Origin: Prevotellaceae bacterium | GTDB lineage: Bacteria; Bacteroidota; Bacteroidia; Bacteroidales; Bacteroidaceae | Assembly (NCBI GenBank): GCA_031262785.1 | Contig: JAISHB010000064.1 | Coordinates: 1 to 64,000, forward strand | Reading direction: 5' to 3' | Length of the DNA: 64,000 nucleotides | In this document: piece by piece, positions 1,724 through 55,445 of the stretch | Layout of the letters: every line of letters starts with the position of its first letter | How positions within the stretch are numbered: position 1 is the first letter of the stretch | Made by a program: the position numbers and the translations under genes | Notes under the pieces: model-generated | Database searches by the model: none | The model's input: the letters and a program-made list of their open reading frames with translations, nothing else | Told to the model about the DNA's origin: nothing

Positions 1724-2487
1724 TGGATTCATTTAATCCTTTCTCACTTAGTGGTAAAACGATTGTAGTGACTGGGGCTTCTTCCGGTATTGGTCGGCAA
1801 TGTGCGATTGATTGTTCTAAAATGGGGGCGCGTTTAATTCTTGTTGCTCGCAACGAGGAGCGACTTCAAGAAACATTGTGCATGTTATCCGGTTCGGAAC
1901 ATTTTTATTATTCCTTTGATTTATGCCTTATTGAATCTATTAAGGACTTTATAAGCAAGATTGTATGCGAACATGGAAAAATTGATGGTTTTGTTCATGC
2001 AGCTGGTATTGAAAAAACCTTGCCTGTAAAATTGCTATCTTATCATGATTATGAAAAGATTTATCGCGTAAATGCTATTAGTGCATTTGAATTCATTCAT
2101 CATTTTAGCAACAAAGAATACTTCAATAATGGAGGTCATATAGTTTTGATAGCATCGATCTCCTCTATTGTAGGGAGAAAAGGTTTAGCTGCATATGCCG
2201 CATCAAAAGGGGCTATAACAAGCGCTATTCGACCTATGGCTTTAGAGTTTGCCAAACGAAATATTTGCGTTAACAGTATTTCACCGGGTACAATACTTAC
2301 TCCATTAATGCAAGATGTTCTCCATTCACTATCTGAATAAGATGTAAAAAAGAGGTTAGATGGATTTCCTTTGGGCATTGGAGTGGAATCGGATGTCTCA
2401 AATCTATGCATATATCTGTTGAGTGACGCTTCTCGATGGGTTACCGGTCAGAATTTGATAATTGATGGTGGATATACTGCGCGATAG
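1723..2487 (+). pseudogene. SDR-family 3-oxoacyl-ACP reductase interrupted by an in-frame TAA (2338-2340)
   Basis: TGASSGIG and YAASKGA motifs before the stop; after the TAA the same frame continues DVKKRLDGFPLGIGVESDVSNLCIYLLSDASRWVTGQNLIIDGGYTAR*, a canonical SDR C-terminus. Confidence 0.75.
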
Positions 2488-2605
2488 TATATAGAATCAG
2501 TAAGCACTCACTATGAGGCTCTTGCCAACGAATAACTCTTCTTCTACTTTTTCTTTAGTATTCCGATGAATATGCCTACTTTCGCCTAAACAAATTAGAT
2601 TCATT

Positions 2606-7748: not shown

Positions 7749-8534
7749 TTATCCCTGAGGAGGCTCCTCCTCCTCATCTCCGGAATTACCGTTGTCGCCC
7801 GGATGGGTATCTGTATTTCCACTTCCCGCATGCGAAACTTTTTGGCCGAGTATTCGCCGCTTATACACCACAATCACCGAATTGAGGTAGTCGCGAAACC
7901 GGGCAAACTTCGCTTCGCCCCGGAGCGTGATGAGTGCATTCACTATCTTGATGAGTTCGTGATAGGCCTCAATCAGCGCGTTTGCAATAGCTTTCGTTTC
8001 GCCCACCACCGTTTGAGAGGCGGCATGATTGGCCTCCTCTTCCAGTTTGATCACTTCGTTATTGCCCTCTTCCATCATATCGACGTAGGAAGTCAGGTTC
8101 AGCAAAGCCACTTCACCGGCCAACTTCTTGGCGTCGCGAAGATCGGGAAGAAACTGAAGCATCACCGCAGTCTGCTTCACCCGTCCCATGTTGGGCGTGA
8201 AATTATACAAGTTCCAATGATCGTGTAGCTTCTCATACGCTGCAAGTTCGTCACCCGAGGCATGATTGAAAATGGAGAGTCCTCCTCTGTAACCCCTCAC
8301 TCCCCGGTCGCGCTTGGCGTCGGCAAGAGCGAACGCTTCGGTGAGATCTTTCTTTCGGGAAAGCTTCACACGTTCGTCCATTCTCGTAACCAGCTCGCTG
8401 AAGGTTTTGCACTGTGCAGGGGCTTCCTGCAGAATCGCCGAAGTGGCGTTAAGCTCTTTCTGCACGGTGAGGCAGAAGGATACTAAATCGATTTGACTTA
8501 GCTTTTGCAAGGTGATGCGTTCAATCGTATCCAT
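7749..8534 (-). CDS. Helical hypothetical protein, probable DUF6261 family, paralogue 1
   Basis: C-terminus FRDYLNSVIVVYKRRILGQ...GDNGNSGDEEEEPPQG matches paralogues at 33515 and 54160. Confidence 0.6.
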   Translation of the reverse strand: MDTIERITLQKLSQIDLVSFCLTVQKELNATSAILQEAPAQCKTFSELVTRMDERVKLSRKKDLTEAFALADAKRDRGVRGYRGGLSIFNHASGDELAAYEKLHDHWNLYNFTPNMGRVKQTAVMLQFLPDLRDAKKLAGEVALLNLTSYVDMMEEGNNEVIKLEEEANHAASQTVVGETKAIANALIEAYHELIKIVNALITLRGEAKFARFRDYLNSVIVVYKRRILGQKVSHAGSGNTDTHPGDNGNSGDEEEEPPQG

Positions 8535-8650: not shown

Positions 8651-8724
8651 ATGCAAATAATCACTCCCTCCAAATCGGAGCAACAATTTCTTCCAAAATT
8701 CTAAGATTTCTCTCATTCGGGGAA

Positions 8725-8937
8725 CACTACAATTTAGATTTCTTTTTACATATCAAATCTGAGAAGCCTTAGAATCCGGATTTCTTTTTACATATTAAAT
8801 TTGAGGAACCTTAGAATTAGAGTTTCTAACGCATCTAAAATCTGAGGAGCCTTAGAATTGGAGTTTCTAAGGCGTCTAAAAATTGAGGAGCATTAGAATT
8901 GGAGTTTCTAAGGTTCCTAAAATTTGAGAAGCCCAAC
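8725..8937. repeat. Array 1: tandem 41-42 bp repeats
   Basis: GAGRAGCCTTAGAATtggagTTTCTAAGG...; unit anchors at about 8767, 8809, 8850, 8891, 8932. Confidence 0.9.
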
Positions 8938-18712: not shown

Positions 18713-18753
18713 AAGATAGCTGGGGGATTAGCGCCACAAAGGTAGCATCTTTT

Positions 18754-19197
18754 TTACCGATACCGGCGCGACAGGTAGATATAACCTCCGCCGCACGCTA
18801 TCAACAGGAACGTTCCGCCAAGGACAACCGGCAGCAGGTGGAGCTGCATCCCCAGAAAGATAATACCGCACACCACATTGAGCACCCGCACCAAACGCAC
18901 GGCCAGGAAGAGTTGTGCCCGCACATTGTACTGGGTGATGCGTACCGGAAAGCGGAACGATTTGGCCGGCAGGTTGGCACTGGCGCCCAGTGCAAGCATC
19001 ACGGTGGTTTGAACGCCCACCTGTTTGAAGAAGGTGCCTATGGAACCTATCTCATCAGACTTTAGCAAGAGGGCGAGCACCCACGTGGCAATGAGCAGCA
19101 GCAGGGCCGCTCCTTCGAGCAAACGGTCAACCGGCGCAGCCGGCTGACGCAGACCGGCAAAGGCCTGGCCTACGGTGTAATGACCTAACTTAATCAT
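18754..19197 (-). CDS. Hypothetical membrane protein
   Basis: MIKLGHYTVGQAFAG...; two or more TM segments; ATGA overlap with the upstream RHH gene. Confidence 0.65.
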   Translation of the reverse strand: MIKLGHYTVGQAFAGLRQPAAPVDRLLEGAALLLLIATWVLALLLKSDEIGSIGTFFKQVGVQTTVMLALGASANLPAKSFRFPVRITQYNVRAQLFLAVRLVRVLNVVCGIIFLGMQLHLLPVVLGGTFLLIACGGGYIYLSRRYR

Positions 19198-22070: not shown

Positions 22071-22110
22071 CCAGTTACTTTTGATACATCCTCCCGAACC
22101 GGTGTAAATA

Positions 22111-22437
22111 CAAGCTTGCCCAACCCGGGCAAGTCCAATACCGTGCTGCGGCAAGCTTGCCCAAGCTGGGCAAGTCACATACAACGCTGCGACAAGCTTG
22201 CCCAAGCTGGGCAAGTCCATCCTGACCCTCCGGACAAGCTTGCCCAAGCTGGGCAAGTCCATCCTGACCCTCAGACAAGCTTGCCCTGCCCGGGGCAAGT
22301 CCAAACTGACCCTCAGACAAGCTTGCCCTGCCCGAGGCAAGTCCAAACTGACCCTCGGACAAGCTTGCCCTGCCCGGGGCAAGTCCAAACTGACCCTCAG
22401 ACAAACTTGCCCTGCCCGGGGCAGCCCTGTTTCGGGG
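22111..22437. repeat. Array 2: tandem 41-42 bp hairpin repeats
   Basis: Eight units, starts 22112, 22153, 22194, 22236, 22277, 22319, 22361, 22403; each contains CTTGCCC-loop-GGGCAAG. Confidence 0.95.
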
Positions 22438-33115: not shown

Positions 33116-33386
33116 TCGGCGCCCGCCGACAGCCTCAATTGTTAAGACGGCATGCTCTCGGCGCCCGCCGATTGTCTTGATGCTTAACAGTTCACGCCAT
33201 CTTCTCCCGCCGATTGCTCTGTTTCTTAACAATTGATGCGATCTTCGCCCGCCGATTGCTCTGTTTCTTAACAATTCATGCGATCTTCTCCCGCCGAGAG
33301 CTTTGCTTCTTAACAATTGATGCCATCGGCGCCCGCCGAGAGCTTTGCGTCTTAACAGTTCATGCCATCGGCGCCCGCCGACAGAA
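33116..33386. repeat. Array 3: tandem repeats with exact 42 bp pitch
   Basis: CCCGCCGA core at 33122, 33164, 33206, 33248, 33290, 33332, 33374. Confidence 0.97.
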
Positions 33387-33426
33387 ATTCTTCCCTCTTC
33401 ATATTGCAGGTTTCCGCATGGCGTTG

Positions 33427-33434
33427 TATCTTTG
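33427..33434 (+). promoter_or_regulatory. -7 element TATCTTTG for DUF6261 paralogue 2
   Basis: Matches TAnnTTTG between array 3 and the gene. Confidence 0.5.
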
Positions 33435-33514: not shown

Positions 33515-34282
33515 ATGCAAATAGAAGATATAGGAATAACCAAAATGAATAACGGCGGTCACTACAATTTTGTAGAGAAGCAGATCGGACATCTCTCCGA
33601 CAACCAGTCCGTTTCCCCTAAAGTGCCTCCGCTGCTTTCCCAGCTAAAGGAGAAGTTCGCAGCCGAAGGCTCCTACCTGAAAACTTTTCAGAAGAGTATG
33701 ATTACCGACAGCATCCATGCTGCCGATAAGAAGCGCGATGCATTGTATGTGGGCTTGCACGAAATGATACGTGCCCACTCGCACAATCCGCTCGCCGAAC
33801 GGGTTACCGCAGCCCTGGAATTGCTGCAGGTGTTCAAGGAATATGCCATCCGTACCGGTCTGCAGATCGACACCGAGACGGGAATGATGGAAAATCTGAT
33901 TAACGACTTGCAAACCAAGTTCGCCTCACAGGTGAAATTGCTTGCATTGGGCGACTACGTAAAGGCACTTTCGAGTGCCAATGAAGAACTTAAAAGCCTT
34001 ACCGCCAGCCGACTGCAACAACAGGCCGGCCGCGTGGTGGGCGCCTTGGCGGCAGCGCGTCGCCAAACCGACAACGCTTATAAAGCCGTCATCCAGATGC
34101 TTAATTCGCTCATGGTAGTGGAGGGCGAAGAGCGCTACCGCTCGCTGGCGATACTGCTGAATGCCGAAATCACGCACGCCAAGCGTGAACTGCTCGGCCA
34201 GCATGCCAGCGGCAACACCGAGCCGGGCGGCGACGCCGGCAACGGTGGTGACGACGGCGACGACGACGTACCGCAAGGATAG
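33515..34282 (+). CDS. Helical hypothetical protein, probable DUF6261 family, paralogue 2
   Basis: MNNGGHYNF, MITDSIHAADKKRDALY, LNAEITHAKRELLGQ, acidic Gly-rich tail ending VPQG. Confidence 0.65.
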   Translation: MQIEDIGITKMNNGGHYNFVEKQIGHLSDNQSVSPKVPPLLSQLKEKFAAEGSYLKTFQKSMITDSIHAADKKRDALYVGLHEMIRAHSHNPLAERVTAALELLQVFKEYAIRTGLQIDTETGMMENLINDLQTKFASQVKLLALGDYVKALSSANEELKSLTASRLQQQAGRVVGALAAARRQTDNAYKAVIQMLNSLMVVEGEERYRSLAILLNAEITHAKRELLGQHASGNTEPGGDAGNGGDDGDDDVPQG

Positions 34283-46110: not shown

Positions 46111-46462
46111 TTCGGTGCGCCGAACGGTGTCAGGGACAACTGAAAGACACTGTTCGGCGCACCGAATTGTTTCAGGGAGCGGAGAGACACTTCGTCCCGT
46201 GGTACGGGATGCAGTCTCCCCTTAAGGGGTCTTAAAGGACGGGGGTCGGGACAGCGTCAAACCTTTCGGCGTGTTAAAAGACGGGGTACGGGATACGGCC
46301 GCCCCTTAACGGATCTTAAAGGACGGGGGTCGGGACTGCGTCAAACCTTTCGGCGTGTTAAAGGACGGGGGTCGGGATCCGTTCACCCCTTAACGGGACT
46401 TAAAGGACGGGGGTCGGGACGACCTGATTCCGACCCGATACAGGGAGGTCGGTGCGCCGAAC
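46111..46462. repeat. Array 4: tandem repeats with 42 bp pitch, edge hairpin and alternating A/B units
   Basis: TTCGGYGCRCCGAA boxes at 46111 and 46153 and again near 46449; TTAAA core at 46232, 46274, 46316, 46358, 46400. Confidence 0.95.
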
Positions 46463-54159: not shown

Positions 54160-54936
54160 CTATCCTTGGGGAGGCTCTTCCTCGTCGCCTCCGGAGTTGC
54201 CTCCGCTGGCGGCGCCTTCGTCGCCCGTATCGGCCGACGGGCCTTTGGCCTTTTGGCCAAGCACCTCGCGGCGGTAGTGAAGAATCTGGGCATTGAGGTA
54301 GGAGACGAAATCGGCATACTTGGCGTCTCCCTCCACAATGAGATAGGCGTTCAGCTTCTCGATAAAGGTGTGGTAGGCTTTTTCAGCCTCGGCACGGGCA
54401 GCTTTGAGGGTGCCGTTGACGTGATTCTTCTGCTCCTCGGTGCGTTGCTGCATCAGGTCGATTACTTGCTGGTTGGCCGCTGCGAATTGATCGACCAAAC
54501 TGGTCAGCCCCAGGGTTTTCACCGCAGCGGCATACTTGGTGCGCATGTCGAGAATGAGGTTGCCCATCATACCAGACTCTTTATCGCGCTGCCCCTTCAC
54601 CCGGATGCGATAATCTTTAAACGCCTGCTCCAACTGCTTGGCAAGGCCGGCCTTGTCGGGTTCGAGCAGGAAGGTCTCGACGCGCTTTACCAAGGCCGGA
54701 TAGAGCCGGTCGCGAAGGGCGTCGGCCTCTTCGATTTGATCGGTAATCAAACTCTTGGTGGATAGTTTCAGCGCGGCGTTCTCGGCGTCGATGGCCTTCC
54801 CGAAGGCCTCCAGCTCGGCTTTGAACTTGCTGTTGATGGCGGGAGTCGATTTGGCTCGGTTATACACATCGGTTTCAAATTGGAAATGACCTCCGTTGTT
54901 CATTTCTCTGTAGTAAAAACTTTCGGCTTTTGTCAT
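54160..54936 (-). CDS. Helical hypothetical protein, probable DUF6261 family, paralogue 3
   Basis: MNNGGHFQF, SLITDQIEEADALRDRLY, YLNAQILHYRREVLGQ, tail SGGDEEEPPQG. Confidence 0.65.
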   Translation of the reverse strand: MTKAESFYYREMNNGGHFQFETDVYNRAKSTPAINSKFKAELEAFGKAIDAENAALKLSTKSLITDQIEEADALRDRLYPALVKRVETFLLEPDKAGLAKQLEQAFKDYRIRVKGQRDKESGMMGNLILDMRTKYAAAVKTLGLTSLVDQFAAANQQVIDLMQQRTEEQKNHVNGTLKAARAEAEKAYHTFIEKLNAYLIVEGDAKYADFVSYLNAQILHYRREVLGQKAKGPSADTGDEGAASGGNSGGDEEEPPQG

Positions 54937-55104: not shown

Positions 55105-55445
55105 TTCGGTGCACCGTCTTTTAAGTCCCGTTAAGGAGTGACGGCATCCCGACCGTCGTCTTTTAAGGCGCGTTAAGGGGCGAAGGGATCCCGACCCCCG
55201 TCCTTTAACACGCCGAAAGGTTTGAAGGGATCCCGACCGTCGTCCTTTAAGACCCGTTAAGGGGAGAGGGGATCCCGTACCCAGTCTTTTAACACGCCGA
55301 AAGGTTTGACGGGATCCCGACCCCCGTCCTTTAAGACCCGTTCAGGGGCGAAGGCATCCCGTAGGTCGGGACGGAGTGTTTCGATGCGGGGAGAGGGTAG
55401 TCGGGTGCACGGGATGGAGTGTTTCGCTGGTGCGGGAGTTTGTCC
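55105..55445. repeat. Array 5: tandem repeats with 42 bp pitch, inverted relative to array 4 and of the same family
   Basis: TTTAA core at 55120, 55162, 55204, 55246, 55288, 55330; GGAGTGTTTCG at 55373 and 55416. Confidence 0.95.

Follow-up and report, generated by a model that had tools for sequence, protein, structure and literature searches.

Does the tandem array at positions 33116–33386 belong together with the DUF6261 gene that follows it? It lies in a 64-kb window (the window being the whole stretch of DNA that was analysed), flanked by a GH3/beta-lactamase fusion gene (PF00933 + PF00144) and by the DUF6261 gene (PF19775, 2e-37; 129 bits against a Pfam cut-off of 27), and these Pfam matches agree with the location given in an earlier, sequence-only reading of this DNA. 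That reading had also proposed a link between array and neighbouring protein; we have followed it through the window, the genome to which the window belongs and other Bacteroidota.

The array at 33116–33386 and other arrays in the window

The array consists of seven units with a pitch of exactly 42 bp throughout, as originally described: CCCGCCGA occurs in it seven times (at 33122, 33164, 33206, 33248, 33290, 33332 and 33374), and the identity at lag 42 is 0.81, where 1000 dinucleotide shuffles gave a mean of 0.26 and a maximum of 0.42 over all lags from 20 to 79. In the whole 64-kb window, CCCGCCGA was counted 11 times against 4.2 expected. The box TTAACARTT, said to recur in perfect register, is present five times with the 42-bp spacing (33184, 33226, 33268, 33310 and 33352), but unit 7 lacks the TTAACA box. 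The perfect dyad TCGGCGCCCGCCGA is restricted to units 1, 2, 6 and 7, and the left dyad arm in units 3–5 reads TCTTCT or TCTTCG, so that the palindrome is indeed intact in the outer units and degenerate in the central ones. Unit 1 carries TTGTTAAGA. The last dyad ends at 33381, and TATCTTTG follows 45 bp on, at 33427–33434 (about 40 bp had been estimated); a TTG located 20 bp upstream of it completes a promoter-like pair, TTG-N20-TATCTTTG, right after the array. The elements of this locus are as follows.

33116..33386, plus strand: tandem array of seven 42-bp units with the dyad TCGGCG-CC-CGCCGA and the TTAACARTT box, upstream of DUF6261 paralogue 2
33405..33434, plus strand: putative Bacteroidota-type promoter TTG-N20-TATCTTTG, immediately 3' of the array
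33515..34282, plus strand: DUF6261 gene (PF19775), 255 amino acids, all-helical model, disordered linker, tail DDDVPQG
34259..34279, plus strand: codons for the conserved C-terminal tail DDDVPQG

No second copy of this particular array was detected in a DNA-level search of the genome to which the window belongs. Arrays of its kind do recur: in each of the five strongest tandem arrays of the window, the period is 41 or 42 bp or an exact multiple thereof. Three of them are located upstream of the window's three DUF6261 genes and two are not. Apart from the locus described above, these are:

7749..8534, minus strand: DUF6261 gene, tail EEEPPQG
8715..8933, minus strand: array of 41-bp pitch, upstream of the DUF6261 gene at 7749–8534
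22110..22423, plus strand: array of 42-bp pitch ahead of an ATP synthase alpha/beta-family gene (22611); no DUF6261 gene
46198..46420, plus strand: array between convergent genes, without a DUF6261 gene; unit family as at 55114, inverted (similarity read from the sequences)
54160..54936, minus strand: DUF6261 gene, tail EEEPPQG
55114..55363, minus strand: array of 42/84-bp pitch, upstream of the DUF6261 gene at 54160–54936

The array at 8715..8933 has a 91% identical copy on another contig (C64), where no DUF6261 match was found. The array at 22110–22423, which has no DUF6261 gene nearby, contains a CTTGCCC...GGGCAAG dyad. On a different contig (L184), the promoter of a V-type ATPase operon likewise has an array abutting it.

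Arrays and DUF6261 genes across the Bacteroidota

The window's genome (an assembly of 2.34 Mb in 135 contigs, 76% complete) has 40 PF19775 matches, and nearly every DUF6261 gene with enough upstream sequence is preceded by a 41–42 bp array with a unit sequence of its own. We counted as an array any repeat with a pitch of 40–43 bp, or multiples of it, upstream of a DUF6261 gene. Of 152 genes tallied in several classes of Bacteroidota, about 132 had one; the sub-tallies are about 81 of 93 genes, 29 of 34, 13 of 16 for classes elsewhere in the phylum and 9 of 9 for additional genes from a complete genome. In the complete genome, of 4.3 Mb, there are 38 DUF6261 genes, only L045/L267 being without an adjacent array. 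The rule was also seen in other Bacteroidales, and Prevotella nigrescens, a named species, has DUF6261 with a 41 bp array, a first scan of named genomes having found nothing. The proposed link between array and protein is supported in part, and much widened (about 130 of 150 genes have an upstream array of 41/42 bp). The arrays and the DUF6261 genes suggest a large, undescribed set of protein/DNA-address pairs on the chromosome.

The array is almost always upstream of the gene and rarely downstream, and roughly one in eight DUF6261 genes has no recognisable array. Two loci, L010 and L030, have no upstream array and a 42-bp array directly downstream (L030 at 1987–2161); L030 and L031 lack the C-terminal tail described below and appear truncated or frame-shifted. 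Many contigs of the window's genome end immediately before a DUF6261 gene or inside one (L021, L028, L029, L033, L034 and L036), which is what would be expected should assembly be confused by near-identical arrays or promoters; the true copy number in this genome is probably above 40. In another genome (G237), the locus pairs L113/L114 and L119/L120 are near-identical on two contigs, with the same array units and unit numbers, apparently because two strains are present within one assembly.

DUF6261 itself is patchily distributed: it was found in 46 of 393 Bacteroidales genomes and in 12 of 396 genomes of a phylum sample, and most members of the genus to which the window belongs are without it. 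One DUF6261 gene (L111, MT839608.1, 2068–2928) occurs in a scaffold of 4.2 kb from human faeces, deposited under the name 'Bacteriophage sp.', 3' of a large helicase-like ORF; a weak 42-bp upstream array appears there with lax settings and none with strict ones. A phage or plasmid origin of the family was considered and dismissed, that single unannotated scaffold and one Prevotella nigrescens replicon being all that could be adduced for it; two scans of viral contigs turned up no relative.

The pitch takes essentially two values. Amongst 116 arrays, most lag-2 peaks fall at 82 or 84 and most lag-3 peaks at 123 or 126; the mean pitch, 41.46 bp, corresponds to about four turns of B-DNA. Pairs of orthologues are 41/41 or 42/42 in nearly all instances, and pitch conservation in relatives, on which the sequence-only reading had set store along with copy number, therefore held; unit number varied modestly between related genomes (e.g., 6.5 versus 5.9 and 5.8 versus 6.5 units). 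Above 80% protein identity, the pitch is the same and the units are usually recognisable; below about 65%, the similarity of the units is at background, and paralogues that are 72% identical can have unrelated arrays. That each paralogue has a unit sequence of its own had escaped the earlier reading. Since arrays are at background similarity below about 65% protein identity, the correlation between protein and array sequence is weak, and we dropped strict co-evolution of the two as an explanation. Across genomes, related proteins tend to agree in pitch despite differing array sequences (0 of 5000 permutations were as extreme), but within genomes the correlation between pitch and protein is weak (pooled p = 0.02; neither large genome is significant alone). 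The idea that the protein dictates 41 or 42 bp is, therefore, suggestive across genomes and weak within them, and we do not lean on it.

Neither of two other origins for such a repeat fits well. A coding repeat was rejected, as 41 cannot be divided by three and nearly all of the arrays are located outside long ORFs. Neutral growth of a minisatellite by slippage, beside a fast-duplicating gene family, would account for the variable number of units and for their likeness within an array, but it would yield many periods and positions, where nearly all arrays, in several classes, are of 41- or 42-bp pitch; moreover, in 440 kb of a related genome that lacks DUF6261 there is no array of this kind. 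The two-valued pitch already contradicts slippage, to which we give almost no credence.

Dyads are enriched in the unit consensus sequences (37% at p < 0.05; KS p = 7e-20), which raises the question of whether the units act as hairpins, in cruciform DNA or in an RNA through the array, and are read by structure, with the sequence free to vary while pitch and dyads are kept. Compensated changes between units do occur: the pooled count is 84 double changes against 63 expected, with arrays L009, L065 and L084 contributing. This signal is, however, small and comes mostly from those three arrays, and units 3–5 of the 33116 array lose the left arm without compensation. The arrays are upstream of the promoter, no RNA family of Rfam matched at the arrays (over the window, only a tRNA was found) and the copies remote from DUF6261 genes, described below, have sequence in common, not structure alone. 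With base-pair compensation so slight, the dyads look like two-fold protein sites rather than maintained hairpins, and we rejected the latter, a reading by structure being very improbable.

Unlinked copies and the shared C-terminal tail

Near-copies of seven gene-linked arrays (the best 88–96% identical) are located on ten contigs without a DUF6261 match, at no fewer than 10 sites, as found by searching the window's genome at the DNA level with 30 arrays; the sequence-only reading had not seen them. In the complete genome, this search located about 14 unlinked sites, every one with a match to a single gene-linked array, so gaps in the assembly are not the cause. The unlinked copies in the window's genome are intergenic, upstream of a ruvB-like gene, of the V-type ATPase operon and of others, and also between convergent genes; about half of those inspected have no evident promoter. 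In one array family, four copies are homologous unit by unit over 340–390 bp, one of them extending into the promoter region. Counts of arrays away from DUF6261 loci come from the window, from sampled stretches and from DNA searches. The DUF6261-rich complete genome has 19 such arrays in 400 kb chosen away from DUF6261 genes (17 of the 19 being outside long ORFs), and a congener of the window's genome that is without DUF6261 has none over 440 kb (p = 3e-6). Only six of the 19 arrays met in this random way match a gene-linked array, and many arrays are thus without a recognised partner.

An ordinary transcription factor could be thought to produce this picture, with DUF6261 regulating its own promoter and a small regulon through phased operator sites upstream. 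In the window's genome, many DUF6261 genes have a TAnnTTTG box directly following the array, about 80 bp ahead of the start codon, and some unlinked copies are upstream of promoters (the ruvB-like gene, the V-type ATPase operon, ATP synthase). The many copies lacking an evident promoter speak against it, as do the number of sites, since five to seven over 200–300 bp far exceed the usual needs of a regulator, and the failure to find a helix-turn-helix or other regulatory DNA-binding domain. We regard such a regulon as unlikely; it and structured RNA are less likely than the alternative that follows.

The copies could alternatively be dispersed mobile repeats that spread whole, in the manner of BrickBuilt and other minisatellite-bearing MITEs, with DUF6261 and the HU-like proteins hosting the master copy, or helping to replicate, move or restrain the element, instead of acting as regulators. 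BrickBuilt, in Porphyromonas gingivalis, is a 23-bp minisatellite-MITE present 19 times. It has leader and tail ends as well as inverted repeats and target-site duplications; one of its copies, BrickBuilt_14, adjoins PGN_0872, an HU-family gene (PF00216) (PMC4596501, Table 1). The unit-by-unit homology of the four copies, including the adjacent promoter region in one, and the assorted intergenic places at which copies are found, convergent genes included, are what mobility would bring about. Yet on reading the flanks of the copies, we saw no clear terminal inverted repeats or target-site duplications, and DUF6261 does not resemble a transposase (searches against Pfam, NCBIfam and PHROGs gave no transposase family match, only PF19775). 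Furthermore, mobility leaves unexplained why a pitch of 41–42 bp is kept while the sequence turns over, and why the position is nearly always on the promoter side. This rival is the strongest, if rather unlikely in our estimate, and it is compatible with a pairing of protein and array, because proteins that restrain or use such elements would give the same matching of sequences.

A further observation concerns the C-terminus. Most DUF6261 proteins of the window's genome have a variable Gly/Asn/Asp linker followed by an almost invariant EEEPPQG or DDDVPQG. EEEPPQG is encoded in 27 genes by mixed synonymous codons, from which it follows that the tail peptide is under selection at the protein level. 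The DNA pattern of the tail gave 40 matches in the window's genome against one in a reversed control; the extra matches are two fragments of further DUF6261 genes and three HU-family DNA-binding proteins (PF18291 or PF14848), the latter being the sole bearers of the tail found in this genome besides DUF6261. The three HU genes are themselves adjoined by arrays, with a pitch of about 23 bp, for which there are about 14 further dispersed matches in the window's genome:

L187, 2190–2309: HU-linked array of about 23 bp pitch
L188, upstream of the gene at 1992–2525 (minus strand): HU-linked array of about 23 bp pitch
L189, 2608–2758: HU-linked array of about 23 bp pitch

In a congener in which the DUF6261 tail is LPDPLA, the one additional genuine bearer of the tail is HU-like (assigned by eye from its sequence), with no array detected next to it. 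That two families of unrelated proteins change their tail together suggests a single partner common to both.

A putative pairing of protein and array

The explanation that we favour, without putting it above an evenly balanced prospect, is that a DUF6261 protein and the array before its gene form a matched pair, in which the protein would bind its own array and the copies of it and the tail would recruit a common partner. The array would be a run of helically phased sites, four DNA turns per unit and usually with a short dyad, on which the protein may assemble side by side, both at its own promoter and at array copies elsewhere, the four-turn pitch allowing the subunits to line up on one face of the DNA. 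The acidic, proline-containing tail, specific to the genome and common to DUF6261 and HU-family proteins, would recruit one partner to all addresses; the likely outcome is a local nucleoprotein structure that could provide self-regulation as well as folding, silencing or marking of the array sites, while rapid divergence of the unit sequence would keep the paralogues apart.

The sequences shared by gene-linked and distant arrays, together with the tail held in common with HU-family proteins, point to DNA binding. Against the model, unrelated arrays in paralogues of 72% identity are demanding for sequence recognition. The genes without a recognisable array, the weak correlation of pitch and protein within genomes, the small share of randomly met arrays with a gene-linked match and the lack of a detected second copy of the 33116 array also count against it. 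The protein itself offers no recognisable DNA-binding domain, and no helix-turn-helix, in its AlphaFold2 model, in Foldseek or in family searches. The model is all-helical with a disordered tail (mean pLDDT 83, pTM 0.50); Foldseek returned no significant relative, the best being the helical bimodular sensor domain of McpS (E = 0.06, TM about 0.4), and the core, with a median net charge of +2, is just slightly basic. It is here, in the missing domain and the slightly basic core, that the binding model is weakest. Relatives amongst known defence, phage or PDB proteins were sought and none was found, PADLOC giving no credible match to a known defence protein family.

More tentatively, and with distinctly less conviction than for the matched pair as such, the whole may constitute sequence-addressed chromatin: dozens of DUF6261 paralogues and the tail-sharing HU proteins would each sit on a private phased array, at their own gene and at scattered sites, and recruit one factor, the address book evolving very fast. 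DUF6261 combines dozens of copies per genome and a pitch of some four DNA turns across several classes with an almost complete turnover of sequence. Should the proteins bind the arrays, nature would have supplied a collection of mutually distinct protein–DNA pairs. Bacteroidota might then have a layer that organises or silences the chromosome, and minisatellites such as BrickBuilt might be explained in the same way. The common tail opens a direct way to test the system, through the partner of EEEPPQG. In the literature searched, we found no description of DUF6261 function or of the gene–array rule, and one incidental mention of DUF6261 amongst 5.4 million papers.

How does this system compare with those already known? 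In plasmid iterons and partition centromeres (parC/ParR, tubC/TubR), phased direct repeats immediately precede the gene of their own binding protein. The DUF6261 arrays are likewise phased direct repeats directly upstream of a gene whose product is a putative binder. However, no replication initiator, filament NTPase or partner gene was found next to DUF6261, and there are dozens of mutually different chromosomal pairs per genome; DUF6261 is not an initiator nor of the ParR/TubR or ParB type, with PF19775 as its only family match and no structural match. REP palindromes are linked to RAYT genes, which encode a Y1-type transposase. These and the GTAG/CGTC-tagged palindromic repeats resemble our arrays in being dispersed intergenic palindromic repeats tied to a protein gene (PMC3733652). 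DUF6261 differs in that it has no transposase match, and its arrays are long and regularly phased, each gene having its own sequence.

With BrickBuilt, the likeness extends to intergenic, spacerless tandem repeats in many dispersed copies, with a unit number that varies between strains (PMC4596501), and to the position of BrickBuilt_14 beside an HU-family gene, as the arrays of about 23 bp are here beside the tail-bearing HU genes; by analogy, the product of PGN_0872 is a candidate BrickBuilt binding protein. BrickBuilt differs by its 23-bp unit, by forming a single sequence family without DUF6261, and by being described as mobile, with no linked protein proposed. Several of our array families have a tandem core with dispersed intergenic copies, no second copy of the 33116 array having been detected, and the unit of the latter is 42 bp instead of 23 nt. 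The gene–array system resembles iterons and centromeres in layout and BrickBuilt in dispersal, and lacks defining features of each.

The HU-HIG/HU-DNA_bdg proteins (PF18291, PF14848) are alike in bearing the DUF6261 tail, in two genomes with different tails, and in having dispersed arrays of their own in the window's genome; they differ from DUF6261 in their unrelated HU fold, a pitch of about 23 bp and far fewer copies. Burroughs and colleagues reportedly analysed the HU clades of Bacteroidota in 2017. In the complete DUF6261-rich genome, L227 carries a 22-bp tandem array of about 20 copies at 18740–19186, which is possibly of the HU-linked kind.
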